A program made the translations under genes and the position numbers. From NCBI GenBank assembly GCA_019745775.1, contig JAIESR010000003.1, positions 62,001 to 126,000 of the forward strand: 64,000 bases of DNA, in the 5' to 3' direction. Positions 4,450 through 46,676 of this stretch are shown piece by piece. Source of the DNA: Xanthobacteraceae bacterium (lineage in GTDB: Bacteria > Pseudomonadota > Alphaproteobacteria > Rhizobiales > Xanthobacteraceae). The notes beneath the pieces are model-generated. The model did not search any database. It was given only the letters and a program-made list of their open reading frames with translations, and was not told the DNA's origin. How positions within the stretch are numbered: position 1 is the stretch's first letter; every line of letters starts with the position of its first letter.

Positions 4450-4450
4450 G

Positions 4451-29045: not shown

Positions 29046-29066
29046 ACGGCTCGGCGCGCCACAGGT

Positions 29067-29748
29067 TCAACGTTTCGCCGTGATCTCGATCTCGATCAGC
29101 TTGCCCGGCCGCGAATAGCCGTCGACCTGCTCGACCTCGCAGTTGTCGAGCGGCACGGTCCCGGTCGCGGCGACCCCGTCGAGGAGCGCCTTCGGGTTCT
29201 CGTTCCGGTGCAGGAAGAACGCGACATGCACGACGTTCGCCCACGCGCAGCCGGTCTCGGCGAGCAGCGCCGGCGCGCGTGAGCACGTCGGTGTATTGCT
29301 CGGAGAGCGTCGGCAGCGTCTCGCAGGTCATGCCGGCGAGGAACACCATCGGGCCCCAGGTGAGGTGGCGGATGAACGGCTGCACCGGCGTGTGCTCGGA
29401 CACCTGGCGCGCCCCGCCCGCCGGCGCCGCCATGGCGAAGAGATCGACGCCGACGTCGGCGGCGGACGAGAAATAGCCCGGCGCGATGTAGCTCGAGGTG
29501 GCGGCGCGGGCCTGCCCTTCGAATACCCTGCCGCGCACGCCGCTCACCACGTCGCGCGCCTCGCGGGTACGCCCGAACACCCGCGAGCGCACGACGTTGC
29601 GGTCGAGCGCGAGGCCCTGCGACGCGAGCGCGGCGGCTGCTTGCTCGAACAGCGCCTGCGATTGCCGTTCCAGCGAGCCGCCGCCTTCGGCCTCGAGGCC
29701 GAGGTAAACGAAGCGCTGGCCGGCGAAATTGATCGTCTTCTGGCGCAT
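29067..29748 (-). pseudogene. RidA (YjgF) family protein with a frameshift
   Basis: The frame from ATG 29748 encodes MRQKTINFAGQRFVYLGLEA through TCETLPTLSEQYTDVLTRA, a RidA-like protein. Near 29275 the frame is lost. Shifting by one base restores LLAETGCAWANVVHVAFFLHRNENPKALL and YSRPGKLIEIEITAKR, ending at 29067. RidA proteins hydrolyse reactive enamines/imines. An indel in a GCGCGCC run is the cause, so either decay or a sequencing error. Part of its 3' end recurs at 30879-30988. Confidence 0.8.
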
Positions 29749-29781: not shown

Positions 29782-29917
29782 AACGCATTCCCCGGTTAAG
29801 TTGACCCGCTCTCTCCCGCTCGTCCCCGCGAAAGCGGGGGACCCAGGTTACCTTCAGACTGGATTGCCGCTTGCGCGGCAATGAGCGGGGAAGACCCCGA
29901 TCAGGTGGGAACCGCTC
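29782..29917 (-). repeat. Dispersed palindromic repeat, copy 2 (inverted copy of 4451-4580)
   Basis: Reverse complement matches 4451-4580 over its whole length, including GCGGTTCCCACCTGA, the two nested hairpins and TTAACCGGGGAATGCG. The copies differ at scattered positions, so they are old. Confidence 0.75.
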
Positions 29918-30034
29918 TGGCGCCAATGCGCGCCGCCTGCCATCGGACCAGTCACCCATGTCCATGGGCACTGCGCGCTTGCGCCGCCGCCAGTTCGGGC
30001 GATCTCAGAGTCTTGGCCACTGCGCGCGCTCCCC

Positions 30035-30078: not shown

Positions 30079-30225
30079 CGATCCAATCGCCGGTCTTGAA
30101 CACGGTGGTTCACAGAACTTCGGACGTGTTCACCGTCGTCAACCACGAGAGTGTGCGGCACTCGTCAAACGGTTCTTGCCGTGCCTGACCTCCGGCAGCT
30201 TCCTCCCTCCATGAGGGCACCCGAG

Positions 30226-30488
30226 TCAAAACCCGAGTCTGTAGAACTGCACGCCGATCTTGTTGGCTCGTCGCCAACGAACCCGGCATTTGGGTTGCAC
30301 TTCCTGCGAACCAAAGTGAGGCGAAAATAATCAGGCACGACGTCGGGCACTGAAACCAGGATGCATGCGCCTGTTGGCGAGATATCAGTGACGATACAGT
30401 TGGTAATGCGCTTCCCGACCAACGAGGAAATTGCTCCCGGGCGTTTCCAGTCAACGCGTGGTTGAGAACGACGCTTGTCTCCAGACAT
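30226..30488 (-). pseudogene. PilZ-domain protein with a frameshift
   Basis: ATG 30488 starts MSGDKRRSQPRVDWKRPGAI, then CIVTDISPTGACILV, a PilZ-type beta-barrel start. After YFRLTLVRR the frame is lost near 30308. One base away it resumes as EVQPKCRVRWRRANKIGVQF and stops at 30226, which is the usual PilZ ending. PilZ proteins bind cyclic di-GMP, though the RxxxR motif here is not certain. A one-base deletion explains both halves. Confidence 0.7.
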
Positions 30489-30878: not shown

Positions 30879-31030
30879 CACCCGGCCGCGAATAGCCGTC
30901 GGCCTATCGGCCTCGCAGGTGGCGAGCAGCGCCGTGCCGGTCGCGGTGATGCCGTCGAGGAGCGCCTTCGGGTTCTCGCGCCGGTGCACTACGTCCGTGG
31001 GCACTGCCCGCTTGCGCCGCCGCCCATTCG
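30879..31030 (-). repeat. Displaced duplicate of RidA-gene 3' sequence and adjoining DNA
   Basis: 30879-30988 matches about 29105-29216 (CCGGCCGCGAATAGCCGTCG and GTCGAGGAGCGCCTTCGGGT shared) with deletions. Immediately after, 30991-31030 matches 29957-29996 (GTGGGCACTGCCCGCTTGCG-like). Two blocks that are 740 bp apart in the original lie side by side here, so this is a duplicated segment with an internal deletion. Confidence 0.65.
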
Positions 31031-31055
31031 AGGCTATTTCGATGGCTTCGCACCC

Positions 31056-31131
31056 GCTCCCTTCGTCTAGCGGTCTAGGACGCGGCCCTCTCAAGGCTGA
31101 AACACGGGTTCGATTCCCGTAGGGAGCGCCA
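31056..31131 (+). tRNA. tRNA-Glu (anticodon CTC), CCA encoded
   Basis: A full cloverleaf can be folded: acceptor stem GCTCCCT/AGGGAGC, D-arm with TAGCGGTCTAG loop, anticodon stem CGGCC/GGCTG around loop CTCTCAA (anticodon CTC, reading GAG), and T-arm ACGGG/CCCGT with TTCGATT. Discriminator G and CCA follow (31128-31131). Its 3' 44 bases are duplicated at 37041-37084, as expected of an integration target. Confidence 0.95.
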
Positions 31132-31311
31132 GCGCTTTCCGCATAAAGCAGCCTCGGCACGACGTCGGGCGCTTGAGTTCTCCCCGGACTGTATCGGATA
31201 GTCTGCCCATGAGGTTCTGGCGCCCGTGGGTTCGTAGGCGCGGGCCGATGGATCCTCCAAGACAGTGCCGGCCACGTTGCGCAGGCACACAGAACAAGAA
31301 GGGAGGGTGCG

Positions 31312-32328
31312 ATGATCGCATTGCGGTCGATCGCGTTGTGCGGACTCTTTGTGATTGCGCCCGCGCTCGCGCCTTCATACGCCAACGAGCCGTTCTATGG
31401 CGGCCGGACGATCGCCATCGTTGTTCCGTCGGGCGCAAGCGGCGGCTACGACACCTATGCCCGGCTGCTGGCGCGTCACATGGGCAAGCACATCCCGGGC
31501 AAGCCGCACTTCGTCGTGCAGAACATGCCGGGCGGCGCCGGGGTTCGCGCGGCCGACTATCTGACCGGGGTCGCAGCGCAGGACGGCACCGCGATCGGCA
31601 TGCTCGAGCAGGCCTTGTACCTGCGGCAGGTGCTGGACCTGCCCGGGCTGCGCGGCGACGTCCGGAAGTACAACTGGATCGGCCGGCTGGTGAGCAACAG
31701 CGCCGTGCTCTACGCATGGCATACGGCCAAGGTTCGCCGCATCGAGGACGCTTTCGACAGCGAGTTGATCGTGTCCGCGTCCGGCACGGCGCCGCGCCTG
31801 AACTGGACGGCGCTCAACATGCTCGCCGGCACGAAGCTGCGGATGATCACCGGCTACGAGGGACCGTCCGCGGCCAAGATCGCCATGGAGCGCGGCGAGG
31901 TCGAGGCGACGGCGCAGCCGTGGCCGGTCATCCGCCGCGAGAACGCCGAGTGGCTGCGCGACAAGAAGATCAATCTCCTGGTTCAGACCGGCGACCACAA
32001 CCCGGGTCTCGAGCACCTGCCGCGCATGACGGACCTGGCCAAGACCGAAGAGAACCGCAAGGTCTTAGAGATTTTCGCGGCGCCCGCCCATATCGGGCGC
32101 TCCCTATTCACGTCGCCCAACGTGCCCGCCGATCGGGTCGACGTGTTGCGCAGGGCGTTCGACTTGACGGTCAAGGACGACGAGTTCGTCGCGGAGACAA
32201 GCAAGATCGGTCTCGACATCGAAGCGCTGACCGGCCGCGAATTGCAGAATTATTTCGCGACCGTTTCGTTCGCGCCGTCATTGGTTGCGCGCGCCAGGGA
32301 AGTCGCCGAGCGCGCCGGTCTCAAATGA
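31312..32328 (+). CDS. TctC-type substrate-binding protein, long subgroup
   Basis: 338 residues: signal peptide (IALRSIALCGLFVIAPALAPSYA), then EPFYGGRTIAIVVPSGASGGYDTYARLLARHMGKHIPGKP and VVQNMPGGAGVRAADYL, the long-subgroup N-terminus. Later LRMITGYEGPSAAKIAMERGEVEA and the ending ARAREVAERAGLK fit the same group. GAAGGGAGGG precedes the ATG. It is the first gene to the right of the tRNA-Glu, inside the candidate island, and converges with a CoA-transferase gene. No permease is adjacent. Ligand unknown, perhaps the acid activated by the neighbouring CoA-transferase. Confidence 0.88.
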   Translation: MIALRSIALCGLFVIAPALAPSYANEPFYGGRTIAIVVPSGASGGYDTYARLLARHMGKHIPGKPHFVVQNMPGGAGVRAADYLTGVAAQDGTAIGMLEQALYLRQVLDLPGLRGDVRKYNWIGRLVSNSAVLYAWHTAKVRRIEDAFDSELIVSASGTAPRLNWTALNMLAGTKLRMITGYEGPSAAKIAMERGEVEATAQPWPVIRRENAEWLRDKKINLLVQTGDHNPGLEHLPRMTDLAKTEENRKVLEIFAAPAHIGRSLFTSPNVPADRVDVLRRAFDLTVKDDEFVAETSKIGLDIEALTGRELQNYFATVSFAPSLVARAREVAERAGLK

Positions 32329-32337
32329 CGTCTGCCG

Positions 32338-33519
32338 CTACTCGACCGCGCCGGCTTCGCGCAGTGCCTTGATCTCGGCGTGGTCGAAGCCGAACTCCGC
32401 CAGCACTTCCTCCGTATGCTCCGCGAACTCGGGCGTGCGAACGGTCAGCTTGCTCGGCGTGCGGCTCAGGCGGAACGGCTGGCGCGGGAGCGGAAGGTCG
32501 TTGCCATCGGTGCCGGCAACTTTCTGGACGAGCCCCAGGTGTTGCACCTGCGGATCGTTGAAGGCCTGGTCGATCGAGTTGATCGGCCCGCAGGGCACTT
32601 CGGCTTCAAGCATCTTCCTGGTCAACGTGGCGGTGTCCATCTCGCCGACGATTGCCTGGATGAGGCTGTTCACCTCTTTCCTTCGGCTTCGCCTGATCTC
32701 GCGGGTCGCGTAGTCCGGATGGTCGATCAGGTCCTCGCGGCCGAGCGCCTTGCACAGCCGGGGCCACATGTACGGGATCGGCGCGATGTTCACATAGCCG
32801 TCCTTGGTCTTGTAGGCGTTGGTCGGCACGCCCGACGGATGCTCGTTGCCGACCTGCTTGGGAACGACGCCCTCCACGAGGTAGCGCGCTGCTTGCAGGT
32901 CGAGCGTGAACATCTGCGACTCGATCAGCGACGTTTGCACCCACTGGCCCTGGTTCGATTTCTGCCGCTCCATCAGCGCGGTGAGAATGCCGAGTGCGGC
33001 ATAGAGACCTGTCAGGATATCGGCGATGGGAATGCCGACCCGCATCGGGCCGCGGCCGGGCTCGCCCGTCACCGACATCAGGCCGCTCATGCCCTGCACG
33101 ATCTGGTCGACGCCGGGAATGTCCTTGTAGGGGCCGTCCTGCCCGAAGGCGGAGATGCTGGCCAGGATGATGCGCGGATTCTTCGCCTTGAGCGTTTCGT
33201 AGTCGAAGCCGAGGCGCCGCTTGACGCCGGGACGGAAATTCTCGACCAGCACGTCGGCCTTCTCTGCAAGCCGATGCAGCACGGCGCGTCCTTCCTCGCT
33301 CTTCAGATCGAGGGCGATCCCGCGCTTGTTGCGGTGCTTGTTCTGGAAGTCGGCCTCGTGACGTCCGGAGAAATCCTCGGGATTGCCGGTGCGGTCGACG
33401 CGGATGACGTTCGCGCCCCAGTCCGCAAGCTGACGCACGCAGACCGGTCCGGCCCGGGCATGCGTCAGATCGAGGACGACCAGGTCCTCTAGAGCGGTCG
33501 ATGCTGGCTTGTATGACAT
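32338..33519 (-). CDS. CaiB/BaiF (class III) CoA-transferase
   Basis: 393 residues, the standard length. Begins MSYKPASTALEDLVVLDLTHARAGPVC; family blocks are LADWGANVIRVDRTGNP, NKRGIALDLKSEEGRAVLHRL, ENFRPGVKRRLGFDYE, FGQDGPYKDIPGVD and MRVGIPIADILTG, where the Asp is the likely catalytic nucleophile. Moves CoA between organic acids. It lies 15 bp upstream of a TctC gene on the same strand, so uptake and activation of an acid are likely coupled. The acyl-CoA dehydrogenase and SDR nearby could carry out later steps. Confidence 0.93.
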   Translation of the reverse strand: MSYKPASTALEDLVVLDLTHARAGPVCVRQLADWGANVIRVDRTGNPEDFSGRHEADFQNKHRNKRGIALDLKSEEGRAVLHRLAEKADVLVENFRPGVKRRLGFDYETLKAKNPRIILASISAFGQDGPYKDIPGVDQIVQGMSGLMSVTGEPGRGPMRVGIPIADILTGLYAALGILTALMERQKSNQGQWVQTSLIESQMFTLDLQAARYLVEGVVPKQVGNEHPSGVPTNAYKTKDGYVNIAPIPYMWPRLCKALGREDLIDHPDYATREIRRSRRKEVNSLIQAIVGEMDTATLTRKMLEAEVPCGPINSIDQAFNDPQVQHLGLVQKVAGTDGNDLPLPRQPFRLSRTPSKLTVRTPEFAEHTEEVLAEFGFDHAEIKALREAGAVE

Positions 33520-33534
33520 CGTCTTTCTGCGCCG

Positions 33535-34578
33535 TTATTCTGCGATGATCTTGCGCGCCCGGACCTTGAGATCGGCCGGTGTCGACAGCACGCGCGCGAC
33601 GATGTCCTGCAGCGTGCCGCCCGAGACGGCGTTGATCTCGGTCCGGGCCGTGATCGCTGCCTTGATGAAATCCGGATCGCGCAAGGTCGCCTCGTATGCG
33701 ACGCGCAATGCCTGCACGCGCTCTGGCGGTGCGTTGGGTGCGATCGCCATTGGCTTGCCCATCGCGTCGCCGGCAATGACGAGATCGATGACCCTACGGT
33801 CGTCCGCGTTGCGCGCCAGCTCCTGGATCGACGGCACGCCCGTCAGCTCCGGGTCGTCGGACTTCGGCTCGCTCTGAACCAGAAGGTTGACCTTCCTGTC
33901 GCGGATCCAATGCAGATGGGTCGCGCGCCAGCTGTCCCATGAATTCGTGACCGCCTGCGCCTCGCCCCGCTCCATCGCCAGCGTCATGGTGGAATTGCCT
34001 TGATAGCCGGATACCACCCGGATTTTCGTTCCCAGCATCTCGTTGAGCAGTCGCGGGAAGGTGTAGGTGATCGCGCCAGGGTTGGAGGCGGCGGCAATCA
34101 CCTCCTTGGTGCGAGCATCCGCCAGGCTACGCACGCCCGCCGTATGCCAGACGCCGAATGTGAGGGGGCTTGTGCTCATCGAGCCCAGCCACGACAGGCG
34201 GTTGGCGTCGTATTGCACGCCGGCGATTCCCACCGCCTGCGCGGCGATGAGCGTATTCGGGAACATGCCGATCGCGGTGCCGCCCTGCGGCGCGACGGCA
34301 TACAGGTAGTTCGCCATCTTGATGCCGCCCGCGCCGATCATGTTCTGCGCGACGACGGTTGGATTGCCCGGAATATGTTTGCCGATGAAGCGGGCGATCA
34401 GCCGGGCTTCCATGTCGTAGCCGCCGCCGACGTTCACCCCGATCAGGATCTGGACGGTCTTGCCGCGGTAGAAGTCGGCCACGGGATCGGCTTGAGCCCG
34501 CGACGTGCTCGGGCTGGCGGCCAACAGGCACACGGCTGCGAAATAGAAGCGACACCGCATCGCAGTGCTGCAATTCAA
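33535..34578 (-). CDS. TctC-type substrate-binding protein, long subgroup
   Basis: 347 residues from TTG 34578, which has GGAGGA 7 bases upstream; an ATG at 34560 lacks a ribosome site but gives a similar signal peptide (RCRFYFAAVCLLAASPSTSRAQA). The mature part starts DPVADFYRGKTVQILIGVNVGGGYDMEARLIARFIGKHIPGNP and VVAQNMIGAGGIKMANYL, the best example of the long subgroup here. It ends STPADLKVRARKIIAE. Cotranscribed with the CoA-transferase 15 bp downstream; the acyl-CoA dehydrogenase gene diverges from it. Confidence 0.88.
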   Translation of the reverse strand: MNCSTAMRCRFYFAAVCLLAASPSTSRAQADPVADFYRGKTVQILIGVNVGGGYDMEARLIARFIGKHIPGNPTVVAQNMIGAGGIKMANYLYAVAPQGGTAIGMFPNTLIAAQAVGIAGVQYDANRLSWLGSMSTSPLTFGVWHTAGVRSLADARTKEVIAAASNPGAITYTFPRLLNEMLGTKIRVVSGYQGNSTMTLAMERGEAQAVTNSWDSWRATHLHWIRDRKVNLLVQSEPKSDDPELTGVPSIQELARNADDRRVIDLVIAGDAMGKPMAIAPNAPPERVQALRVAYEATLRDPDFIKAAITARTEINAVSGGTLQDIVARVLSTPADLKVRARKIIAE

Positions 34579-34743
34579 TGACGTGTCCTCCGTCGCGCGC
34601 GCCTTGACGGCTGTTGCTGCGCTGCCTTTCACTCGCACGCAGATCGTGGCATGGCAATGTTGCTTGTTCAATACACATAGACATCGCCGGACGCGAGTTT
34701 GTAGATTTGTCCGTCGCTTGACCTGCCTGGGAATGGGGCCCGC

Positions 34744-35897
34744 ATGGATTTCGAGTTGCCGGAAGATATCCGCCTGTTGCGGGAGACCGTCCGCAAGTTT
34801 GTCGATCGCGAGCTGATCCCCATCGAGATGCACAGCATGGACGGGCCGGACCTCAAGCCGGAATACAAGAAGTCGCTGGAGGCCAAGGCGCGGGAGCTGG
34901 GGCTGTGGCAACTGGACACACCGGCGGAGTTCGGCGGCCAGGGCCTCTCGCTGCTTGCGCTCGCGGTCGTGTGGGAAGAGGTCAGTCGCTCGATTGCGCT
35001 GCCGAACCGCGGCGACGGCGTGTTCGGCCCGTCGCCGCGGCCGATCCTGCTGCGGCTGCCCGAGAAGATGAAGGAGAAGTACCTTTATCCGATCCTGCGC
35101 GGCGAAAAATCCGCCGCCTTTGCCCAGACCGAGCCTGAGGCGGGCAGCGACCCTGGCCGGATGAAGACGCGCGCCGTGCGTCAGGGCGACCACTACGTCA
35201 TCAATGGCTACAAGCGCTTCATCTCGCATGCCAAGGGCGCGGACTTCCTCCAGCTCGTGGCCGCAACCGATCCCGAAAAAGGGTCGCGCGGCGGCCTCTC
35301 GGTATTCATCGTGGACATGGATTCGAAAGGTCTTTCGATCGTCCGCGAGAACCGGCACATGATGGGCGACGTCACCTACGAGATCGCGCTCGATGATGTG
35401 AGAGTGCCCGCCGAGAATCTGGTCGGCGAGGAAGGGCAGGCATGCGCGAGGCGCAGTCGTGGATTTCCCGCAACCGCGTGCACCAGGCGACGCACGGCCT
35501 CGGCGTGACGCAACGTTGTCTCGAGATGATCGGGAAGTACGCGCAAGAGCGCGTCACCTTCGGCGAGCCGTTGGCGAAGCGACAAGCCGTGCAGTTCACG
35601 GTCGCCGATCTCTACACCAAGTACCAGGTCGGCCAGCTCTTGACGCACCGCACGGCGTGGAAGGTCGACAAGGGTATCGCCAGCCGCCACGACGCCTATA
35701 TGTGCAAGATTTTTTGCACCGAACTCGGCTACGAAGCGGCCGACCGCTGTATCCAGTTCCACGGCGCCATGGGGCTGACCACCGAGATGCCGATCGAGGC
35801 GATGTGGCGCCGATCGCGCAGCTATCTCATCACCGGTGGCCCGGCCGAGATCATGCGCGCCACGCTCGCCCGCGAAGTCTTCAAGATTTACCATTGA
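34744..35897 (+). pseudogene. Acyl-CoA dehydrogenase, split by a one-base deletion
   Basis: Two frames read one protein. The first starts MDFELPEDIRLLRETVRKF and has AFAQTEPEAGSDPGRMKTRA, the FAD- and substrate-binding middle, ending at VGEEGQ near 35438. The second continues MREAQSWISRNRVHQATHGLGVTQRCLEMIGKYAQERVTFG to the usual C-terminus with QFHGAMGLTTEMPIEAM. Adding one G after 'GGGCAG' rejoins them into a ~384-aa enzyme. As written the C-terminal helical domain, with the catalytic base, is lost. It may be a sequencing error or a real inactivation within the candidate island. Confidence 0.82.
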
Positions 35898-35900
35898 CCC

Positions 35901-36680
35901 ATGGACCTCGATCTCAAGGGCAAGTCGGTCCTGATCACCGGCGCCTCACGCGGCATCGGCCGTGCCATTGCCGAGGCGTTGGCCGCCGAGGGCTGCAATC
36001 TGCATCTGGCCGCGCGCGACGAGGCGCGCCTCAAAGAGCTGGCAGGGCGGCTAAGGAAACAGCACGGCGTTGCGATCGAGATCTATCGTCGCGACCTGTC
36101 ATTGACATCGGAAGTCGAGTCGCTGGGCAAAGCCTGCCAGGACGTCGACGTCCTGGTGAACAACGCTGGCGACATTCCAACCGGCACGCTGGCGACGATC
36201 GATTCTGCAACCTGGCGCAAGGCGTGGGACCTCAAGGTCTTCGGCTATGTCGACCTGACGCGGATCATCTACCCGCGCATGTGCGCGCGCCGCAGCGGCG
36301 TCATCATCAATATCGTCGGTGCGGCCTTCAAGCGTCCGAACCCGCACTATATCGCCGGCTGCATGGCCAATATCGCGCTCGACATGTTCACCCAGTGCCT
36401 GGGCGGCGAGAGCATGCGCTCCGGCGTGCGCGTGGTGGCGGTCCATCCGGGGCCGACGACGTCCGACCGGCATCTCGCTCACGTCAAGGAACGGGCGCAG
36501 CGCGAGCTCGGGGACGCGGGCCGGTGGCAGGAGCTGCACGCCAGGATGCCCGGCGGTCGCGCCGCCACGGTCGAGGAAGTCGCCCACACGGTCGCGTTTC
36601 TGGCGTCAGACCGCTCCTCTTTCACCAGCGGCGGTTCGGTGATCATCGACGGCGGTCTGATGGCGGGGACCTTGAGGTAG
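35901..36680 (+). CDS. Short-chain dehydrogenase-like protein with an altered active site
   Basis: 259 residues with a normal NAD(P)-binding start, LKGKSVLITGASRGIGRAIA (TGxxxGIG), then DVLVNNAG and the family ending FLASDRSSFTSGGSVIIDGG. The active site is unusual: Tyr150 is present but the Lys of YxxxK is Cys154 (HYIAGCMAN), and the usual catalytic Ser is replaced within INIVGAAF. Such divergent SDRs occur near CoA-ester pathways in related bacteria. It starts 4 bp after the acyl-CoA dehydrogenase, so likely the same operon. It may bind cofactor without ordinary SDR catalysis. Confidence 0.85.
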   Translation: MDLDLKGKSVLITGASRGIGRAIAEALAAEGCNLHLAARDEARLKELAGRLRKQHGVAIEIYRRDLSLTSEVESLGKACQDVDVLVNNAGDIPTGTLATIDSATWRKAWDLKVFGYVDLTRIIYPRMCARRSGVIINIVGAAFKRPNPHYIAGCMANIALDMFTQCLGGESMRSGVRVVAVHPGPTTSDRHLAHVKERAQRELGDAGRWQELHARMPGGRAATVEEVAHTVAFLASDRSSFTSGGSVIIDGGLMAGTLR

Positions 36681-37040
36681 GAGCACGGCGACCTTGGTCG
36701 CCGGATCCCTCAATACCAGCCAGTCCAATAGAGCGCGCATGGGTCAGTGCCGAGCGCTTGGACGGTCAGGTTTGCTGACGGAGAGAAATTGGAGTTTGAA
36801 CTTGATGTCAGATGCGAGGCGGGCGGCTCATCAAAGGAGATCGGCAAAGAATTGAAGCGCTATCTTTGCACATACGGCGAGCAGTTTCTCGTACTCAACA
36901 CGCGAATGCGTTGCTCAGATATGACATATGCGGTGAAGATTGAGATATTGATCGGAAGATTAAGTCACGCTTGTCCTCAACCGCAGACCCATGTCGCTTG
37001 CCAGCGGTAGCTTTGTAGCCATACGTCTACAACCGAACTA
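36681..37040 (+). other. AT-richer 360-bp stretch with a possible 87-aa frame
   Basis: This segment at the right end of the candidate island has clearly more A and T than its surroundings. A GTG-started frame at 36747-37010 reads PSAWTVRFADGEKLEFELDV and KEIGKELKRYLCTYGEQFLV, protein-like but without a ribosome site or known domain. It may be a fragment of a transferred gene. Confidence 0.35.
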
Positions 37041-37084
37041 CTCTCAAGGCTGAAACACGGGTTCGATTCCCCTAGGGAGTGCCA
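37041..37084 (+). repeat. Partial tRNA-Glu copy (candidate attR)
   Basis: Forty-four bases matching the tRNA-Glu 3' part (31088-31131), from the anticodon loop (CTCTCAAGG) through the T-arm and CCA, with two mismatches (in the T-stem and acceptor stem). It has no 5' half. With the intact tRNA on the left it forms the direct repeats expected around an element integrated at the tRNA 3' end. Confidence 0.85.
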
Positions 37085-37085: not shown

Positions 37086-39416
37086 CTGCCAGACCTCCGT
37101 TACATCGGCAAACCGGTCAAGCGGATCGAGGACCTGCCGTTGCTGCAGGGCCGCGGCCGTTTTGTCGACGATCTTCAGTTTCCGGCAACGCTCCAGGCGG
37201 CGTTCGTGCGCAGCCCCCATGCCCACGCCGCGATCCGCGGCATCGACGCAAGCGCGGCGCGGAAGCTCCCCGGCATTCGCGCCGTGCTCACGCTCGCCGA
37301 TCTCGCGCCGCTCCTGTCGCAGGAGCGCATCCCGCTGCAGTTCCGCACCGCGGCGCTGCCGGCCGACATCACGCAGTTCGTGCTCGCCAAGGACGAGGTC
37401 GCGTTCGTTGGCGAGGCGGTGGCGGTGGTGGTCGCCGACACGCGCTATCTCGCCGAGGACGCCGCCGCACTCGTGGACGTCGACTATGCGCCGCTGCCGG
37501 CTGTATCGGACTGCCGCGCGGCGCTCAAGCCAGGCGCAGCACTGGCGCACCGGCGCAAGTCCTCGAACCTGATGCATCAGTTCAAGCAGTCCTACGGCGA
37601 CGTCGCATCTGCCTTTGCGCGCGCGCCGCACCGCGCGAGCGTCAACCTGAAGCAGCACCGCGGCGGCGCGCATTCGATCGAAGGCCGCGGCGCGCTTGCG
37701 GTCTATGACGAGAACGAAGACCGTCTGACGCTATGGTCCTCGACCCAGCTTGCGCACGAGGTGCGCGCGTTCCTGATGACGTTGCTCCGCCTCGACGAGA
37801 ACCAGGTGCGCGTGGTGGCGCCCGAGGTCGGCGGCGGTTTTGGTGCCAAGTTCGTGATGTATCCGGAAGAGGTCGTCGTCTCCGCCGCCGCGCTGATGCT
37901 GCGCCGTCCGGTCAAATGGATCGAGGATCGGCGCGAGCATTTCCTGTCCGCCATCCAGGAGCGCGACCAGTATTGGGACCTCGACGTCGCGTTCGATGAT
38001 GACGGCCGCTTGCTCGGCGTGCGCGGCACGATGATCCACGACGAGGGCGCCTACACGCCGCAGGGCGTGAATCTCCCTTTCAACGCCTCGACCGCGCTGC
38101 CGGGGCCTTACATGCTGCCGGCTTACGAGCTCGACGTGCAGGTGGTCGAGACCAACAAGGTCGCGACCATGCCGGTGCGCGGCGCCGGCTATCCGGAAGG
38201 CGCGTTCGCGATGGAGCGCGTGCTCGACGCCATCGCCGATGCGCTGGCGATCGATCGCGCGGAGGTGCGGCGGCGCAATCTGGTGCCGGCCGACAAGATC
38301 CCCTACGCGACGCCGCTGAAGACGCGCGCGGGCTCCGGCATCACGCTCGACAGCGGCGACTTCCCCGCCTGCCAGCAGCGCGCGCTGGATTTGATCGACT
38401 ACGCGCACTTCGGCGAGCGGCAGGCGCAGGCGCGCGCAGAAGGCCGCTACATCGGCGTCGGTCTCGGCAACGGCATGAAGGGCACCGGCCGCGGCCCGTT
38501 TGAATCCGGCATCGTGCGCATCGGGCGGTCGGGCCGCATCTCGGTCTACACCGGCGCGATGCCGATGGGGCAGGGCATCCGCACCGCATTGGCGCAAATC
38601 TGCGCCGAGCAGTTCGGCGTGCCGCCCGATCAAGTGACGGTGGTGGCGGGCGACACCGCCGTCATCCCGCACGGCCAGGGCGGCTTCGCCAGCCGCCAGA
38701 CCATCACCGCCGGCTCCGCCGTGCATCTCGCCGCCGTGGCGGTGCGCGAGAAAGCGCTGGCGGTTGCGGCGCACATCCTAGAAGCCAGCCCCGACGATCT
38801 CGACATGCACGACGGCGTGATCGAGGTCGCGGGCGTGCCGGGTTCCGGCGTGACGCTGCGGATGGTGGCGGAAGCGGTGTCGGGCGTGCCCGGCTATTCG
38901 CTGCCGGGGACGTTCGAGCCCGGCCTCGAAAGCATGCAGAATTTCATTCCGCCGACGCTCACCTATGGCCTCGGCTGCCACGCGGTCGAGCTCGAGGTCG
39001 ACATCGACACCTGCGGCGTGCGCATCCTGCGCTACGTCGTGGTCAACGACAGCGGCCGCGTGGTCAACCCGACCATCGTCGAGGGGCAGATCGCCGGCGG
39101 CGTGGCGCACGGCATCGGCAACGCGTTGTTCGAGCTGATGGCCTACGACGACCAGGCGCAGCCGATGACAACCAATTTCGCGGACTATCTCCTGCCGGGG
39201 TCGGTCGAGGTGCCGAAGATCGAGCTGAAATTTGCGGAGTATCCGTCGCCGCTCAATCCGCTCGGCGTGAAGGGCGTCGGCGAAGCCGGCTGCGTGCCGG
39301 CGGCGGGCGCCATCGTCTCGGCGATCGAGAGCGCGCTCGCGCCGTTCGCCGTGCGAATCACGGAATATCCGGTGACGCCGGCGCGGCTGTTCGGCCTGCT
39401 GGCCGGCAAGCGCTAG
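37086..39416 (+). CDS. Molybdenum hydroxylase large subunit (xanthine dehydrogenase/CoxL family), 5' end altered
   Basis: About 776 residues. The N-terminal part reads PDLRYIGKPVKRIEDLPLLQGRGRFVDDL, the usual start of this family, but the codon where Met is expected is CTG (37086). The next plausible start is TTG at 37140, which drops 18 residues. The molybdopterin-binding core is intact: GGGFGAKFVMYPEE, MPVRGAGYPEGAFAMERV, GQGGFASRQT and the active-site Glu in GVKGVGEAGCVPAAG. The enzyme would hydroxylate an aromatic heterocycle, aldehyde or CO-like substrate, but the FAD and Fe-S subunits are not adjacent. The tRNA copy ends 1 base before the CTG. Confidence 0.85.
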   Translation: MPDLRYIGKPVKRIEDLPLLQGRGRFVDDLQFPATLQAAFVRSPHAHAAIRGIDASAARKLPGIRAVLTLADLAPLLSQERIPLQFRTAALPADITQFVLAKDEVAFVGEAVAVVVADTRYLAEDAAALVDVDYAPLPAVSDCRAALKPGAALAHRRKSSNLMHQFKQSYGDVASAFARAPHRASVNLKQHRGGAHSIEGRGALAVYDENEDRLTLWSSTQLAHEVRAFLMTLLRLDENQVRVVAPEVGGGFGAKFVMYPEEVVVSAAALMLRRPVKWIEDRREHFLSAIQERDQYWDLDVAFDDDGRLLGVRGTMIHDEGAYTPQGVNLPFNASTALPGPYMLPAYELDVQVVETNKVATMPVRGAGYPEGAFAMERVLDAIADALAIDRAEVRRRNLVPADKIPYATPLKTRAGSGITLDSGDFPACQQRALDLIDYAHFGERQAQARAEGRYIGVGLGNGMKGTGRGPFESGIVRIGRSGRISVYTGAMPMGQGIRTALAQICAEQFGVPPDQVTVVAGDTAVIPHGQGGFASRQTITAGSAVHLAAVAVREKALAVAAHILEASPDDLDMHDGVIEVAGVPGSGVTLRMVAEAVSGVPGYSLPGTFEPGLESMQNFIPPTLTYGLGCHAVELEVDIDTCGVRILRYVVVNDSGRVVNPTIVEGQIAGGVAHGIGNALFELMAYDDQAQPMTTNFADYLLPGSVEVPKIELKFAEYPSPLNPLGVKGVGEAGCVPAAGAIVSAIESALAPFAVRITEYPVTPARLFGLLAGKR

Positions 39417-39418: not shown

Positions 39419-41152
39419 TCACCGCGCCGGCGGCGCATGGTCCGGCACCGGCGCCCCGGCCAGGAAGTTGTGAATGGCAGCGACCACCTGGGCGCCTTCG
39501 CCGATGGCGGCGCCGACGCGCTTGATCGAGCCGGCGCGCACGTCGCCGACCGCGAACACGCCGGGCACGGTCGATTCCAAGACGTTGACTGCTGCTTCGG
39601 CCGCCAGCTCGCAGCGCCGCGCGCCGGTGATGACAAAGCCGGCGGGATCGAGATCGATGCCGCAATCGGCGAGCCAACCGGTCGCCGGATCGGCGCCGAC
39701 GAACATGAACACGTTGCGGACGGCGCTCACGGTCTCGTCACCCTCGCGCCGGTTGCGCCAGCGCACCGCTTCAAGCCCGCGCTCGGTGCTGCCGCTCAAC
39801 GCGACGATTTCGCTGTGGGTCACGAGCTCGATATTGGCGGTGGCGGCGATGCGGTCGACCAGATAGCGCGACATGGTGCGCGCGAGGCCGTCGCTGCGCA
39901 CCAGGATCGTCACTTTGGCGGCGTGGCCGGACAGGAACACCGCGGCCTGCCCGGCGGAATTGCCGCCGCCTACCAGGATGACCTCTTCGCCCTTGCATAG
40001 CCGCGCCTCGATCGGCGATGCCCAATACCAGACGCCGCGGCCTTCATAGGCGGCGAGGTTCTCGATCGCGGGCCGGCGGTAGCGCGCGCCTGACGCGATC
40101 ACCAGCGAACGCGCCCGGACGCGGCCGCCGTCGGTAAGCTCGAGCGCCAGCGCGCCGGCGGCCCTGCTGCAGTCCATGGATTTCACCTCGGTCGGGATCA
40201 TGATCTCGGCGCCGAATTTTTGCGCCTGCACGAACGCGCGCCCGGCGAGCGCCTGGCCGGAAATCCCGGTGGGGAAGCCGAGATAGTTCTCGATCCGGGC
40301 GCTGGCGCCGGCCTGGCCGCCGAAGGAGCGGGAGTCCAGAACCACGACCGACAATCCCTCGGACGCGGCATACACCGCGGTTGCGAGACCGGCGGGACCG
40401 CTGCCGACGATCGCGACGTCGTAGACGCGCTTGCCGTCCGCCGGCGCGATCATGCCGAGCGCGCGGGCGAGCTCGGTGATCGGCGGATTCCTCAAGACCG
40501 TACCGTCCGGTGTGATCACCAGCGGCAGTTCAGCGTCCGCCGGCCCATATCTGAGGATCAACTCGCACGCCTCCGGATCGACCTCGGGCTCGATGACGTG
40601 ATGCGGCTGTCCGTTGCGGCGGAGAAATGTCTGTAGCCGGACAACGTCATGCGATTCCGGCGAGCCGACCAGGATCGGACCGCTGGCGCCGGTCTCGATC
40701 AGGCCGACGCGGCGCAGGATCAGCGCGCGTACGATCCGCTCGCCCAGCTCCGCTTCCGCGACCAGCAGACGGCGCAGCTCCTCGGGCGCGATCTCGAGCG
40801 CCTCGACGTCGCCTTCGGCGTGGCCGTCGACCAGCACCGGTCGCCCCGAGAGCGTCCCCACCTCGGCCAGGAACTGGCCGGGGCCCTGATCCACGATCGG
40901 CGTGACGTGCCCGAGCCCGTCGCGCTGGGTGATCGCGACCTGTCCGCTGATGATGACGAACATGCCGCGGCCGACATCGCCGGTTTTGAACAGAAGCTCG
41001 CCGTCGCGGTAGCCGCGGATTGTCCCGAACCGCCGGATGCGCTCGGTCTCCTGCGGCGTCAGCTCGGGGAACATCTGGTCGTAACGCGCCCGCAACGTTG
41101 GTGACAGGGTTGCGGCTTCCGCATCTTCGAACACGCGCGGTTCGTCGGTCAT
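39419..41152 (-). CDS. Fusion of a cNMP-binding domain with a thioredoxin-reductase-like FAD oxidoreductase
   Basis: 577 residues in three parts: a cyclic-nucleotide-binding-like domain (about 35-145; MFVIISGQVAITQRDG, AEVGTLSGRPVLVDG), a thioredoxin/glutaredoxin-like middle (about 165-230; VVRLQTFLRRNGQPHHVIE), and a thioredoxin reductase-like flavoprotein (about 240-565; DVAIVGSGPAGLATAVYAASEG for FAD, VILVGGGNSAGQAAVFLSG for NADPH). The usual redox CATC of TrxR is missing; the aligned place reads WASP in VWYWASPIEARLC. It may be a sensor or a reductase with a different electron acceptor. Stops 2 bp from the molybdenum hydroxylase, convergent. Confidence 0.9.
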   Translation of the reverse strand: MTDEPRVFEDAEAATLSPTLRARYDQMFPELTPQETERIRRFGTIRGYRDGELLFKTGDVGRGMFVIISGQVAITQRDGLGHVTPIVDQGPGQFLAEVGTLSGRPVLVDGHAEGDVEALEIAPEELRRLLVAEAELGERIVRALILRRVGLIETGASGPILVGSPESHDVVRLQTFLRRNGQPHHVIEPEVDPEACELILRYGPADAELPLVITPDGTVLRNPPITELARALGMIAPADGKRVYDVAIVGSGPAGLATAVYAASEGLSVVVLDSRSFGGQAGASARIENYLGFPTGISGQALAGRAFVQAQKFGAEIMIPTEVKSMDCSRAAGALALELTDGGRVRARSLVIASGARYRRPAIENLAAYEGRGVWYWASPIEARLCKGEEVILVGGGNSAGQAAVFLSGHAAKVTILVRSDGLARTMSRYLVDRIAATANIELVTHSEIVALSGSTERGLEAVRWRNRREGDETVSAVRNVFMFVGADPATGWLADCGIDLDPAGFVITGARRCELAAEAAVNVLESTVPGVFAVGDVRAGSIKRVGAAIGEGAQVVAAIHNFLAGAPVPDHAPPAR

Positions 41153-41315
41153 CTTTGGATTACGCTCTACTGTGCCTGTTGCTCATACCACGACCAATGA
41201 CACACTTGTGGTTAGGTAGGCGGCAGGTCGTAGCCTAGAATACGACACATCCTTGGGCTTCGGTCCGACGCATGATCGCCGGACGGCGCCCCTTGTAGGC
41301 GTGCTGGAGGGGTCG

Positions 41316-42461
41316 ATGACGCGCACCGGTTCGTTGTGTTCGCTGTTCCTTTTCACACATTTGTTGTGTAGTTGCGATTCCCAACCTGTTGCCAAAGCGG
41401 TGCAAGCGCCTCCGTCCGTTACGGTATCGCGGCCGCTCCAGAAAAATATTACGGAATGGGATGAATACACCGGTCGGTTCGTGGCGGTGGAGACCGTGGA
41501 GGTTCGTGCCCGGGTCTCGGGTTTCATCGATTCGATTCATTTCAAGGATGGTCAGATCGTCAAACAAGGGGATCTGCTGTTCGTCATCGACCCGCGCCCT
41601 TACAGGATTGCGGTCGAGCAGGCCAAGGCCGAGGTGGAACGCGCCCAGGCCCGGCTGCAGATTGCGACTGCCGACGTCGAAAGGGCGCTGCCGCTGGCCA
41701 AGAGCCAGACGCTGACCCAGCGCGAGTTTGAAACGCGGCTATCGAGCCAGCGCGAGGCCGCAGGTGCGGTGTCGTCGCTCGAGGCGGCCTTGAAGCAGGC
41801 CGAACTCAACCTCGAATGGACGAACGTCCGCGCGCCGATTTCCGGGCGGATCTCCGATCGCCGGGTCGACGCCGGCAACCTGGTAACCGGCGGCCAGACC
41901 GGCGCCACGCTACTGACGGTGATCGTATCGATCGCGCCGATCCACTTCATCATCGACGGCAGCGAAGCCGATTTCCTGCGCTACCAGCGACTCGCCAAGG
42001 CCGGCGCGCGGCAATCGTCGCGAGACGTTCAAAATCCGGTCTCGGTGCGGCTCGCGGACGAGAACGAATTCAAGCATCACGGCCGGATGGACTTTGTCGA
42101 CAACGTCCTCAATCCGCGCACCGGCACGATTCGCGGTCGCGCGATCTTCGAAAACGAGGATGGTCTGCTGACGCCGGGATACTTCGGCAGGATGCGGCTG
42201 TTCGGAGGTCAGCACGACGCGCTGCTGGTGCCCGACAGCGCGATTTCGTCCGATCAGGCCAGCAAGATCGTGTTTACGGTCGCTGACGACGGCACCGTCG
42301 GCGTCAAGCGCGTCGAGCTCGGCCCCATGGTGGACGGGTTGCGGGTCGTTCGGTCCGGTCTCGCGGCCACCGACCGCATTGTCATCGACGGCCTGCAGCG
42401 CGCCCGCCCGGGGCAAAAGGTGACGCCGGAGGACGGCAAGATCGAAGCCATTGCTCGATGA
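41316..42461 (+). CDS. RND efflux periplasmic adaptor (membrane fusion lipoprotein)
   Basis: 381 residues. A lipoprotein-type signal (LFLFTHLLCSCDS, with a Cys after a short hydrophobic stretch) is followed by the HlyD-type barrel-sandwich: RPLQKNITEWDEYTGRFVAVETVEVRARVSGFI, a coiled-coil hairpin (QAKAEVERAQARLQIATADVERALPLAKSQTL), NLEWTNVRAPISGRISDR, and the C-terminal beta domain. Links the inner-membrane pump to an outer-membrane channel. The RND pump follows 66 bp downstream. The ATG at 41316 has GGAGGGG upstream. No outer-membrane TolC gene lies in the set. Confidence 0.93.
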   Translation: MTRTGSLCSLFLFTHLLCSCDSQPVAKAVQAPPSVTVSRPLQKNITEWDEYTGRFVAVETVEVRARVSGFIDSIHFKDGQIVKQGDLLFVIDPRPYRIAVEQAKAEVERAQARLQIATADVERALPLAKSQTLTQREFETRLSSQREAAGAVSSLEAALKQAELNLEWTNVRAPISGRISDRRVDAGNLVTGGQTGATLLTVIVSIAPIHFIIDGSEADFLRYQRLAKAGARQSSRDVQNPVSVRLADENEFKHHGRMDFVDNVLNPRTGTIRGRAIFENEDGLLTPGYFGRMRLFGGQHDALLVPDSAISSDQASKIVFTVADDGTVGVKRVELGPMVDGLRVVRSGLAATDRIVIDGLQRARPGQKVTPEDGKIEAIAR

Positions 42462-42527
42462 TCGCCTGCCGGAAATCGGCGACCGAAATCCAGAAAACCG
42501 AAATCCAAGAGATGAAGGAATGGGGTC

Positions 42528-45500
42528 ATGCGTTTCTCGCACTTCTTCATCGATAGACCGATATTTGCCGCTGTCATCTCGATCCTGCTGACCATCGTCG
42601 GCGCGATCTCCTTTCGTGCGCTGCCGATCACCGAATATCCCGACATTGCTCCGCCCACGATTGTCGTGAACGCGACCTATTCCGGCGCTTCGGCCGAGGT
42701 GATCGCGCAAACCGTCGCGGCGCCGATCGAGCAGGAGATCAACGGCGTCGACAACATGATCTACGTGGTGTCGCAGTCGACCGGCAACGGCGCGGTCGCA
42801 ATCAACGTGGTGTTCAGGCCTGGGACAAACATCGACCAGGCCCAGGTGCTGGTTCAGAATCGGGTCTCCATCGCGCTGCCGCGGTTGCCCGAGGAGGTGC
42901 AGCGCATCGGCGTCACCGTGCGCAAGAGCTCTCCCGACCTGATGCTGGTCATCCATCTCATCTCGCCCGATGGGAGCCTGGATCAGCAGTACATCTCGAA
43001 CTATGCAAGCATCAACATCAGGGATGTCATCACGCGCATCGATGGTGTCGGCGACACGATCGTCTTCGGCGCGCGCGACTATTCGATGCGGGTGTGGCTC
43101 GACCCCGGCAAGATACAATCCCGCGGCCTCACCGCCAGCGACGTGGTGGCGGCACTGCGCGCCGCCAATATCCAGGTGGCGGCCGGCGCCATCAATCAGC
43201 CTCCCGCGACGTCGCCGGGGGGGTTCGAAATCGCAGTGCAAACGCTTGGGCGGTTGTCGAGCCCCGACCAGTTCAGCGACATCGTTGTCGCGACCGACCA
43301 GGACGGCCGGGTCACGCGCGTGCGCGATATCGCGCGTGTCGAGCTCGGCTCGCAGGACTACACGACCAACGCCTATCTGAATAACCAGGTCGCGACCGCG
43401 ATCGGCATTTTCCAGCGGCCTGGCTCGAACGCGCTCGCCACCGCGGCGACCGTGCTCAGCACCATGCGGGACCTCTCGGCCAGCTTCCCGCCGGGAATGA
43501 GCTACCGCGTCGCCTACAACACCACGGAGTTCATCCAGCAATCGGTCAACGAGGTGATCACGACCATCTTTGAAGCCGTCATCCTGGTCGTGATCGTCAT
43601 CATCCTGTTCCTCCAGTCCTGGCGCGCCGCCATCATCCCGATCGTGGCCATACCCGTTTCGCTGGTCGGCACGTTCTTCGTCATGGCGGCGTTCGGCTTT
43701 TCGCTGAACAACCTCACGCTGTTCGGCCTGGTGCTCGCCATCGGCATCGTCGTCGACGACGCCATCGTGGTGGTGGAGAACGTGGAGCGCTATTTGCGCC
43801 AGGGCTTGAGCCCCCGCGATGCCGCCTACAAGACCATGGATGAGGTCGGCGGAGCGCTGGTCGCGATCGCGCTCGTTCTCTGCGCCGTCTTCATCCCGAC
43901 GGCGTTTATCACCGGCATCTCCGGCGCCTTCTATCAGCAGTTCGCGCTGACCATCGCGGCCTCGACGGCCATCTCGTTGATCGTCTCGCTGACGCTGTCG
44001 CCGGCGCTGGCTGCGCTGCTGTTGCGCCCGCACGACCATGAGCCGCGGCGCGGGTTCTGGCACACCGTCGGCCGGCCGTTCAACCTGTTCTTCGCCTGGT
44101 TCAACCGGATGTTCGACAGGCTCTCGCTCGGATACGCCGCGCTGACGCGGCGGGTTCTGCGCGTGTCGGCCGTCATGCTGGTGCTTTACCTCGGCCTGAT
44201 CGGGCTCACCGCATTCGGGTTCAGCCGCACACCGGCAGGCTTCATCCCGCCGCTCGATCGCGCCTACTTCATTGCGGCGATCTCGCTGCCGCCCGGTTCG
44301 AGCCTGGAGCGTACCGATCGCGTGGTGCGAAGGGCTTCGGAGGTCCTGCTGTCGCGTCCGGGCGTCGCCAACGCGGTCGCCTTCGCCGGCTTCGATGGCG
44401 CCACCTTCACCAATGCTCCCAATTCGGGTGTTGTCTTCGTGACGCTGAAGCCGTTCGAGGAGCGCGTGCGGGAACGGCTCGTCACCGCGAACATCCTCGA
44501 CGATCTGCGCGGTCAGATGCAGGCGCTGCGCGAAGCCTTCGTCCTGGTGATTCCGCCGCCCTCGGTTCCCGGCATCGGTACCGGCGGCGGCTTCAAGCTC
44601 TACGTCCAGGATCGCGCCGGCCGTGGCCCGCGTGCGCTCGAGCAGGCGGTCGGCGGCATTCTCGGGCCGGCCAACCAGACACCCGGGCTGGTGCAGGTGT
44701 TCACGCTGTTCAACACCGCGACGCCGCAGATCTATGCCGACATCGATCGCACCAAGGCCGAAATGCTGGGCGTGCCGATCACGCGCTTCTTCGACACGTT
44801 GTCGACCTATATGGGCTCGACTTTCGTGAACGACTTCAACATCCTGGGGCGAACCTATCGCGTCACCGCGCAAGCCGACAATCCGTTCCGGCTGTCGGTG
44901 CGCGATGTCGAAAACCTGCGCACCCGCTCGGTGACCGGCGACATGGTGCCGCTCGGAGCGGTGGCGCGCTTTCAGGAAATCACCGGCCCGTATCGGGTGC
45001 CGCGCTACAATCTGTTTCCCGCCGCCGAAGTGCAGGGGGCGACCACGCCCGGGTTCTCGACCGGCCAGGCGATCGCCGCGATGGAAAGGATTCTCGCTGC
45101 GAACCTTCCGTCGGGCTTCGGCTTCGAGTGGACCGAGATCGCGCTGCAGGAGAAGATCGCCGGCAATACGGCGATCATCGCGTTCACCCTGGCCGTGGTG
45201 TTCGTGTTCCTGCTGCTTGCGGCGCAGTACGAAAGCATATTGCTGCCGCTCGCCGTGATCCTGATCGTGCCAATGTGCCTGCTCGCCGCGGTCAGCGGCC
45301 TGCTGCTGCGCGGCATGGACAACAACATCCTGTCGCAAATCGGCTTTGTCGTACTGATCGGCCTGGCGGCCAAGAACGCGATCCTGATCGTCGAGTTTGC
45401 CAAGCAAGCCGAAGAGCAGGGAGCCAGCCGCTGGGACGCGGCCGTGCAGGCGGCGCAGACGCGGCTGCGGCCGATCCTGATGACATCCTTTGCCTTCATC

Positions 45501-45731
45501 CTCGGTGTCGTCCCGCTGGTCATCGCGACCGGCGCGGGTGCCGAAATGCGCCAGGCGCTCGGCACGGCGGTGTTCTTCGGCATGCTCGGCGTGACATTCT
45601 TCGGCCTGATCTTCACACCCGTGTTCTATGTGTTCGTGCGCTGGATCGGCTCGGTCCTGGCTTCTCGCGGCGGCCCTCGAACCGAGCAGCCCGCGACCGC
45701 CCCGCAAGTGAAAACCGAGGGGTCACCATGA
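42528..45731 (+). CDS. RND multidrug efflux pump (AcrB/MexB type)
   Basis: 1067 residues, normal for a hydrophobe/amphiphile efflux RND pump. Twelve membrane helices are expected; the first is RPIFAAVISILLTIVGAISF. The proton-relay Asp pair is in GIVVDDAIVVVENVERY, and later VIPPPSVPGIGTGGGF, TGQAIAAMERI and VVLIGLAAKNAILIVEFA are typical. Uses proton flow to export drugs, solvents or detergents. It works with the adaptor lipoprotein just upstream. Direct repeats ACCGAAATCCA occur twice in the gap between the two genes. Confidence 0.95.
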   Translation: MRFSHFFIDRPIFAAVISILLTIVGAISFRALPITEYPDIAPPTIVVNATYSGASAEVIAQTVAAPIEQEINGVDNMIYVVSQSTGNGAVAINVVFRPGTNIDQAQVLVQNRVSIALPRLPEEVQRIGVTVRKSSPDLMLVIHLISPDGSLDQQYISNYASINIRDVITRIDGVGDTIVFGARDYSMRVWLDPGKIQSRGLTASDVVAALRAANIQVAAGAINQPPATSPGGFEIAVQTLGRLSSPDQFSDIVVATDQDGRVTRVRDIARVELGSQDYTTNAYLNNQVATAIGIFQRPGSNALATAATVLSTMRDLSASFPPGMSYRVAYNTTEFIQQSVNEVITTIFEAVILVVIVIILFLQSWRAAIIPIVAIPVSLVGTFFVMAAFGFSLNNLTLFGLVLAIGIVVDDAIVVVENVERYLRQGLSPRDAAYKTMDEVGGALVAIALVLCAVFIPTAFITGISGAFYQQFALTIAASTAISLIVSLTLSPALAALLLRPHDHEPRRGFWHTVGRPFNLFFAWFNRMFDRLSLGYAALTRRVLRVSAVMLVLYLGLIGLTAFGFSRTPAGFIPPLDRAYFIAAISLPPGSSLERTDRVVRRASEVLLSRPGVANAVAFAGFDGATFTNAPNSGVVFVTLKPFEERVRERLVTANILDDLRGQMQALREAFVLVIPPPSVPGIGTGGGFKLYVQDRAGRGPRALEQAVGGILGPANQTPGLVQVFTLFNTATPQIYADIDRTKAEMLGVPITRFFDTLSTYMGSTFVNDFNILGRTYRVTAQADNPFRLSVRDVENLRTRSVTGDMVPLGAVARFQEITGPYRVPRYNLFPAAEVQGATTPGFSTGQAIAAMERILAANLPSGFGFEWTEIALQEKIAGNTAIIAFTLAVVFVFLLLAAQYESILLPLAVILIVPMCLLAAVSGLLLRGMDNNILSQIGFVVLIGLAAKNAILIVEFAKQAEEQGASRWDAAVQAAQTRLRPILMTSFAFILGVVPLVIATGAGAEMRQALGTAVFFGMLGVTFFGLIFTPVFYVFVRWIGSVLASRGGPRTEQPATAPQVKTEGSP

Positions 45732-45845
45732 AGCGCAAAGCATCGGCGCGATGCCGGGTTGAAACCTAAGCACGGGCTTGCCTCCCACGCCGTAATGTCC
45801 GTAAAACTCAATGGACAGGGGTCGCACGCGGTGAGGGCTTGGGCG

Positions 45846-46676
45846 ATGATACGTGGCGTCGTTGGCGCGATGGCACTTGGCCTCCTGGTATGGGTTTCGC
45901 CCGCGGCGGCACAGGCGTCGGTCGAGGGCACCGGAGACCAGGTCAGGATCAGCTACGTCGAACCGAAAAATCCGGCGCACCGTCCGATCTACGAGCGATT
46001 GCAGAAGCGGCGCGTGCTCGAAGACCTGCGCGACTTCCTGTCCCCGCTGAAGCTGCCGCAGCCGCTCACGATCAAGATCGAAGGCTGCGGCGTGGTGAAC
46101 GCCTATTACAGCAGCGGCGCGGTGACGATCTGCTACGAATATGTCGCCTGGCTGCACCAGATCGCGGCAAAGATCACGCTGTCTAACGAAATCTCGCTCG
46201 AAGATGCGGTGGTCGGGCCGTTCGTCGACGTGCTGCTGCATGAAGTGGCGCATGCGATCTTCGATCTCCTGAAGATTCCGCTGTTCGGCCGCGAGGAGGA
46301 CGCCGCCGATCAGCTCGCCGCCTTCATCCTGTTGCAGTTCGGCAATGATGTCGCGCGTCGCACCATCGTCGGCACCGCGTTGCTGTTCCGCCAGATGGCG
46401 GAAGACCAGCAGCCGGGAAGCGCCGACTACGCCGCGGCGCACGGCCTGCCGGCGCAGCGCTTCTACAACGTGCTGTGCATCGCCTACGGTGCGCAGCCCA
46501 AGCTGTTCGCGGATTACGTCAAGCAGGGCTTCCTGCCGGTGTTCCGCATCGGCTCCTGCCGCTGGGAGTACCAGCAGATCCTGCACGCCTTCAAGACGCT
46601 GATCGCGCCGCATGTCGATCCGGCGCTGCAGGCGAAGGTGCAGGGGCGCGAGTGGCTGCCGGCGGGCGGCAAGTGA
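45846..46676 (+). CDS. DUF4344 putative secreted metallopeptidase
   Basis: 276 residues from ATG 45846, which begins a clean signal peptide (MIRGVVGAMALGLLVWVSPAAAQA); GAGGG lies 8 bases upstream. Longer starts are possible at 45795 and 45831. The mature protein has VLLHEVAHAIFDLLKIPLFGREEDAAD: a zinc-type HExxH motif with a downstream Glu/Asp, the mark of DUF4344 peptidase-like proteins. EGCGVVNAYYSSGAVTICYEYV also matches. Function unproven; a periplasmic zinc peptidase is likely. It follows the RND pump, without clear link. Confidence 0.8.
   Translation: MIRGVVGAMALGLLVWVSPAAAQASVEGTGDQVRISYVEPKNPAHRPIYERLQKRRVLEDLRDFLSPLKLPQPLTIKIEGCGVVNAYYSSGAVTICYEYVAWLHQIAAKITLSNEISLEDAVVGPFVDVLLHEVAHAIFDLLKIPLFGREEDAADQLAAFILLQFGNDVARRTIVGTALLFRQMAEDQQPGSADYAAAHGLPAQRFYNVLCIAYGAQPKLFADYVKQGFLPVFRIGSCRWEYQQILHAFKTLIAPHVDPALQAKVQGREWLPAGGK

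Follow-up and report, generated by a model that had tools for sequence, protein, structure and literature searches.

A probable integration remnant with genus-native genes at tRNA-Glu(CTC) in a Xanthobacteraceae genome

A 64,000-nucleotide stretch from the genome of a Xanthobacteraceae bacterium (assembly GCA_019745775.1, contig JAIESR010000003.1, positions 62,001 to 126,000; hereafter the window) carries a tRNA-Glu(CTC) gene and, further downstream, a copy of its 3' half. The region bounded by these two features (31056–37084) is most probably the eroded remnant of a tyrosine-integrase element that inserted into the 3' end of the tRNA gene. The origin of the repeat by site-specific integration is well supported, and the genes between the repeats are not foreign by the measures used. 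An earlier reading of the sequence (the original prediction) had described the same region as a 6-kb genomic island bearing an acid-uptake module, either immobilised or a satellite element.

The direct repeat and turnover at the tRNA gene

The only tRNA gene that ARAGORN detects in the window is the tRNA-Glu(CTC), and a block of its sequence recurs downstream on the same strand with 42 of 44 positions identical, the mismatches falling at tRNA bases 64 and 72 (Table 1). The repeat extends from the anticodon loop exactly as far as the CCA, with no similarity past that point. When the window was scanned for the tRNA 3' block with up to three mismatches allowed, just two places were found, the tRNA gene and the copy, and shuffled sequences gave none (0/100), which confirms the 44-base repeat, its direction and its two mismatches as originally described. 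Genome-wide, three matches to tRNA-Glu(CTC) were obtained at E <= 0.001: the gene itself, the copy, and the second tRNA-Glu of the genome, which ARAGORN assigned to TTC. In tRNA genes, the anticodon loop and the T-loop are favoured positions for tyrosine integrases. The insert is bounded by a direct repeat of a tRNA 3' end (42/44), and what is left on the right is a tRNA 3' fragment in direct orientation, with no integrase found between or beside the repeats.

Site-specific integration into the tRNA 3' end is well supported, not only by the repeat but also by one-sided turnover around the same tRNA in relatives and by integrases found there. Matches to tRNA-Glu were present in 53 of 61 genomes. 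A survey was made of 23 tRNA-Glu(CTC) loci, one per genome, with the fetched loci called CTC by ARAGORN and 9 kb considered on each side, except for shorter spans in G017 (3.1 kb of the 3' side), G007 (7.9 kb of the 3' side) and G040 (7.0 kb of the 5' side). Two loci were scored as sharing a gene if tblastn gave a match with at least 45% identity over at least 90 amino acids and E <= 1e-15. A gene was held in common on the 5' side in 193/253 pairs but on the 3' side in 1/253. The 5' side of the window shares a gene with 19 of the 22 other CTC loci (the exceptions being G013, G019 and G024), whereas its 3' side shares a gene with none of them, and the site is occupied differently in the relatives. 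Gene order downstream of the tRNA is thus not common to the relatives, in line with the original prediction. A DUF4344 gene of the sister species G007, the nearest relative found and a member of the same genus, has its counterpart 14.6 kb from the tRNA in the window and so lies outside the 9-kb count.

Two of the loci carry an integrase gene that faces the tRNA-Glu(CTC); the distance from the end of this gene to the tRNA 3' end is 18 bp in G040 and 27 bp in G032 (locus L214 8799–9890, contig G032:C84). The G040 integrase matches PF00589, and that of G032 is 41% identical to it. The G032 locus also has, at a distance of 47 kb downstream, an exact 15-bp copy of the tRNA end (L226 2649–2663, contig G032:C84; E 0.011), which is a candidate outer repeat only; together with the integrase it possibly marks an intact element. 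A congener, G003, carries a lone 48-bp tRNA-Glu(CTC) 3' fragment with no 5' half near a contig end (L063 78–125, contig G003:C506). This fragment is identical to the same stretch of the G006 CTC tRNA and represents another scar of this kind within the genus. A 30-bp partial tRNA-Glu match (90%) was seen in G030.

Several results weigh against a decayed tyrosine-integrase element. The genome has 13 matches to the tyrosine-integrase family PF00589, 12 of the 13 exceeding the family cut-off elsewhere in the genome, and none lies on the 202-kb contig C146; serine integrases were not searched for. The original prediction had likewise seen no integrase. When the G040 integrase was used to search all 23 CTC loci, its own locus and one other were returned, and the 3 to 13 kb of downstream sequence retrieved for the 22 other CTC loci contained no tRNA 3' copy. 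Since none of these 22 loci shares a 3'-side gene with the window, no empty site, in which the coxL-like gene beyond the copy would stand next to the tRNA, was seen among them. A control set of seven tRNA-Glu(TTC) loci (G011 with 3.3 kb of its 3' side; pairs not matched for relatedness) was also lopsided, with a gene shared on the 5' side in 21/21 pairs and on the 3' side in 6/21, so part of the contrast at CTC may be ordinary gene-order loss. Three of these six 3' pairs are the three same-genus pairs of the TTC set, the CTC set having one same-genus pair, and sharing on the 3' side across genera amounts to 1/252 for CTC versus 3/18 for TTC. Three later loci, L235 (CTC), L236 and L237 (both TTC), were left out of both counts. 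Finally, neither GC content nor tetranucleotide usage deviates over the insert as a whole.

The remnant reading supposes the following course of events. An element that contained a duplicate of the 3' half of the tRNA would have recombined at the 3' end of tRNA-Glu(CTC), leaving the intact tRNA on the left and the 44-bp copy on the right. Its integrase gene, presumably of the tyrosine type, would have been lost later. The genus-native genes now between the repeats may have travelled between congeners on the element or may have entered the site afterwards. We infer that the scar is old, since the copy, which is free to drift, carries two mismatches and one gene inside is frameshifted. As no machinery of an element was detected and the enclosed genes do not look foreign, the region is best regarded as an ordinary remnant at a frequently used insertion site.

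Contents of the insert and extent of the variable stretch

Table 1. Features between tRNA-Glu(CTC) and the return of colinearity with the sister species G007 (window positions; aa, amino-acid identity)
Feature	Position	Strand	Remarks
tRNA-Glu(CTC)	31056..31131	+	Intact, CCA encoded (ARAGORN); left attachment site (attL-like)
TctC-like solute-binding protein	31312..32328	+	Divergent; 40% identical to TctC of the G007 cluster
Class III CoA-transferase	32338..33519	-	PF02515, E 1.4e-113; 76% aa to G007:C19 counterpart
TctC-like binding protein	33535..34629	-	PF03401, 21.3 bits, below cut-off of 27; 69% aa to G007:C19
Acyl-CoA dehydrogenase	34744..35897	+	One-base frameshift near 35440; PF02771/PF02770 and PF00441 in two frames
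SDR oxidoreductase	35901..36680	+	PF13561; NF004779 above cut-off; 67% aa to G007:C19
AT-richer end adjoining the scar	36681..37040	+	GC 0.525; 87-amino-acid open reading frame, no assigned family
tRNA-Glu copy, 44 bp	37041..37084	+	tRNA bases 33–76, anticodon loop to CCA; two mismatches; right, attR-like
coxL-like molybdenum hydroxylase large subunit	37092..39416	+	Molybdopterin-binding domains; NCBIfam CO-dehydrogenase match below cut-off
cNMP-binding / thioredoxin-reductase-like protein	39419..41152	-	Outside the repeats, within the variable stretch; NCBIfam match below cut-off
RND efflux pair	41253..45728	+	Membrane fusion protein and AcrB-like pump; within the variable stretch
DUF4344 gene	45732..46673	+	Colinearity with the sister species returns here

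The gene content originally proposed for the insert was confirmed in part. The CoA-transferase, the SDR and the acyl-CoA dehydrogenase, the last in two frames, all score above the Pfam cut-offs, and in G007 the counterpart of the dehydrogenase is a single stop-to-stop frame of 390 codons, the split here being a one-base difference. The two TctC assignments are weaker, with one match below the cut-off and, for the product of 31312–32328, no match in Pfam or NCBIfam and, in the PDB, weak similarity to TctC proteins (E about 0.002). Mobility, capsid and relaxase genes were found neither among the insert products (Pfam, NCBIfam) nor in the 87-amino-acid open reading frame (Pfam, PHROGs), shorter frames not being scanned, and three unassigned open reading frames had no phage-family match in PHROGs. 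These family searches of the annotated reading frames of the insert, which show no mobility gene, do not bear out a satellite element. Comparison of 31132–37040 with plasmids gave 277 matching records, none of which covers 80% of the query; among the ten listed, all matches lie within the CoA-transferase part, and the best covers 16%.

By composition the insert is native. Its tetranucleotide distance is 0.134, compared to a mean of 0.137 over 95 native windows, and the GC check that had been proposed for it gave normal values save in the last 360 bp. This AT-richer end, which the original prediction had pointed out, has a GC content attained by 0.3% of 2359 equal-sized windows and is the sole stretch standing out by GC. 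It had no DNA match among 20 relatives, its open reading frame matched no Pfam or PHROGs family, and it is possibly a leftover of the lost element. At G007:C19, the sister species has counterparts of four of the five enclosed genes, diverged to about the same degree as core genes; the first TctC-like gene did not appear there, and it was not searched for elsewhere in G007. Given this native composition and these counterparts in the sister species, the notion of a foreign acid-uptake island is unsupported.

The 6-kb limits originally assigned to the island also proved too narrow. The window from 14.9 to 29.75 kb and the tRNA are colinear with G007, and colinearity returns at 45.73 kb, so that the variable stretch begins at the tRNA and ends near 45.7 kb. 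It is 14.6 kb long here versus 4.2 kb in G007, where it holds LysR, DUF533 and dehydrogenase genes. Counterparts of these three genes are found on contig C131 of the window's genome. The different content between shared flanks in the two genomes also speaks for integration at this tRNA.

Alternative explanations for the insert and its surroundings

One alternative overlaps with the remnant reading in accepting the scar as real, and has close to an even chance of being correct: the cargo would be unrelated to the scar, native blocks having been rearranged into a variable site with one breakpoint at the scar. The positions of the blocks in the two genomes favour such a rearrangement. The block of CoA-transferase, TctC, dehydrogenase and SDR genes lies at G007:C19 and coxL at G007:C36, and one-side neighbours of these G007 blocks were found here on contigs C123 and C145, with the blocks absent there. 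The join to coxL points the same way, as its DNA homology with G007 starts at 37092, 8 bp past the scar, and its normal start codon is lost: the frame is open back to 37011, with no ATG, GTG or TTG before 37140. Identity to G007 at four-fold degenerate sites is more equivocal. The five insert pieces (0.54, 0.45, 0.57, 0.61 and 0.51) largely fall within the range of 13 flanking genes (0.49–0.77), which were hand-picked from colinear matches, but their mean is 0.54 versus 0.62 for the flanks and one piece lies below the flank range. Lower values again (0.38 and 0.41) come from the LysR and dehydrogenase genes, which changed place in the reverse direction. The insert has thus diverged somewhat further than its flanks but gives no sign of foreignness to the genus. 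Also at odds with a simple rearrangement, of the seven other genus members, several with incomplete genomes, G007 alone has a strong match to the SDR, the next best being 49%. The block may thus be accessory, its presence in the other six members being doubtful, and this pattern weighs against plain vertical descent of the insert block. Across a wider genome contig collection, a scan for the SDR returned 114 relatives, with near-full-length identity of at most 54% among the best 80 of the 114; as the scan works by short exact peptide patterns and the collection may lack records near the window's own genome, it is not proof that close copies are lacking.

Accretion at the tRNA gene is compatible with the remnant reading and is a tenable, if somewhat less than probable, addition to it. 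Here successive elements would have entered at one tRNA 3' end, a younger one represented by 31132–37040 and an older one, from 37085 to about 45.73 kb, that consisted of coxL, the reductase and the RND pump and has lost its outer repeat. This would account for the difference from G007 over the entire 14.6 kb, and for the RND pump, which has no close G007 counterpart (the best match to the AcrB-like protein is 61% identical and at another locus). A tandem case at tRNA-Lys is described for Sinorhizobium meliloti (PMC11476347). However, a second tRNA fragment or outer repeat was looked for near 45.7 kb and none was found, coxL shows a flank-like divergence from that of the sister species (0.60 at four-fold sites), and the tetranucleotide distances of the sequence from 37085 and of that from 39.8 kb onwards are 0.150 each, within one standard deviation of the mean.

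Misjoining of the draft assembly near the 44-bp repeat might be suspected from the 147 contigs of the genome and from the attachment of coxL to the repeat without its start, but it is very improbable because the repeat copies differ at two bases and the coxL join lies outside the repeat. Tandem duplication of the tRNA region with subsequent decay, to which the partly duplicated region (85–86% identical) directly upstream of the tRNA might point, is very improbable and was set aside as the source of the copy, since the copy runs from the anticodon loop to exactly the CCA with nothing shared beyond, and the duplicated pieces upstream lie on the opposite side and include no second tRNA piece.

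Upstream features and related systems

On the upstream side of the tRNA, parts of the upstream gene and its spacer are duplicated in order, 29104–29212 with 30881–30988 and 29960–30006 with 30993–31040. The pieces flank a 0.9-kb stretch of low GC content (0.54), within which a small open reading frame (30165–30488) has a PilZ match below threshold (E 0.005); in G007, less than 100 bp separates the upstream gene from the tRNA-side homology. A dispersed 135-bp repeat with palindromic parts occurs at 29784–29918 and 4448–4581 in opposite orientations (87.5% identical), and a piece of it is also present in another genus (L058 685–763). The product of 29020–29748, which has no Pfam match and which we take to be RidA-like, appears by eye to have its C-terminal end out of frame compared to the G007 protein. 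The labels coxL and rpoH are likewise our presumed names, the latter for 24107–25081, whose product has sigma-70 domains.

Partial tRNA copies arising from integration are a well-documented phenomenon. Among described systems, the element PYG1 of Pyrococcus yayanosii (PMC9897764) is bounded at tRNA-Gln by 44-bp direct repeats in an intact tRNA and a partial copy. The repeats are alike in length and arrangement to those described here and differ by 1 bp, compared to 2 in the window. PYG1 is about 21.4 kb long and is described as a mobile genetic element, whereas the insert here is 6 kb, has native composition and showed no mobility gene. In Sinorhizobium meliloti, attachment blocks of 46–49 bp at the tRNA-Lys 3' end, repeated use of one tRNA and tandem insertion have been described (PMC11476347), which resembles the present case in the near size of the blocks and in the reuse of a single tRNA gene. 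In the passages of that source examined, by contrast, integrases are present, and the named hot spots are tRNA-Lys, tRNA-Asn and tRNA-Thr; tRNA-Glu(CUC), number 037, appears only in the tRNA table and in a remark on sequence variants, and not as a named hot spot. The loci of G040 and G032 are parallels in that the same tRNA and the same side are used, with the integrase 18 and 27 bp away, although the candidate outer repeat in G032 is 15 bp at a distance of 47 kb, versus the 44-bp block here.

A broader proposal, that tRNA-Glu(CTC) is a long-standing, order-wide hot spot at which elements repeatedly re-place genus-native CoA-ester and solute-binding modules, as opposed to a point of entry for foreign genes, is unlikely in our view. 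The scar itself is of a known kind and lies at a recurrently used integration site. The survey documents a one-sided hot spot at tRNA-Glu(CTC), where the 5' side is kept and the 3' side is replaced in nearly all of the locus pairs compared, and the region shows that sequence bounded by attachment-like repeats need not be foreign by the measures used, so that island callers relying on such repeats only would overcall.

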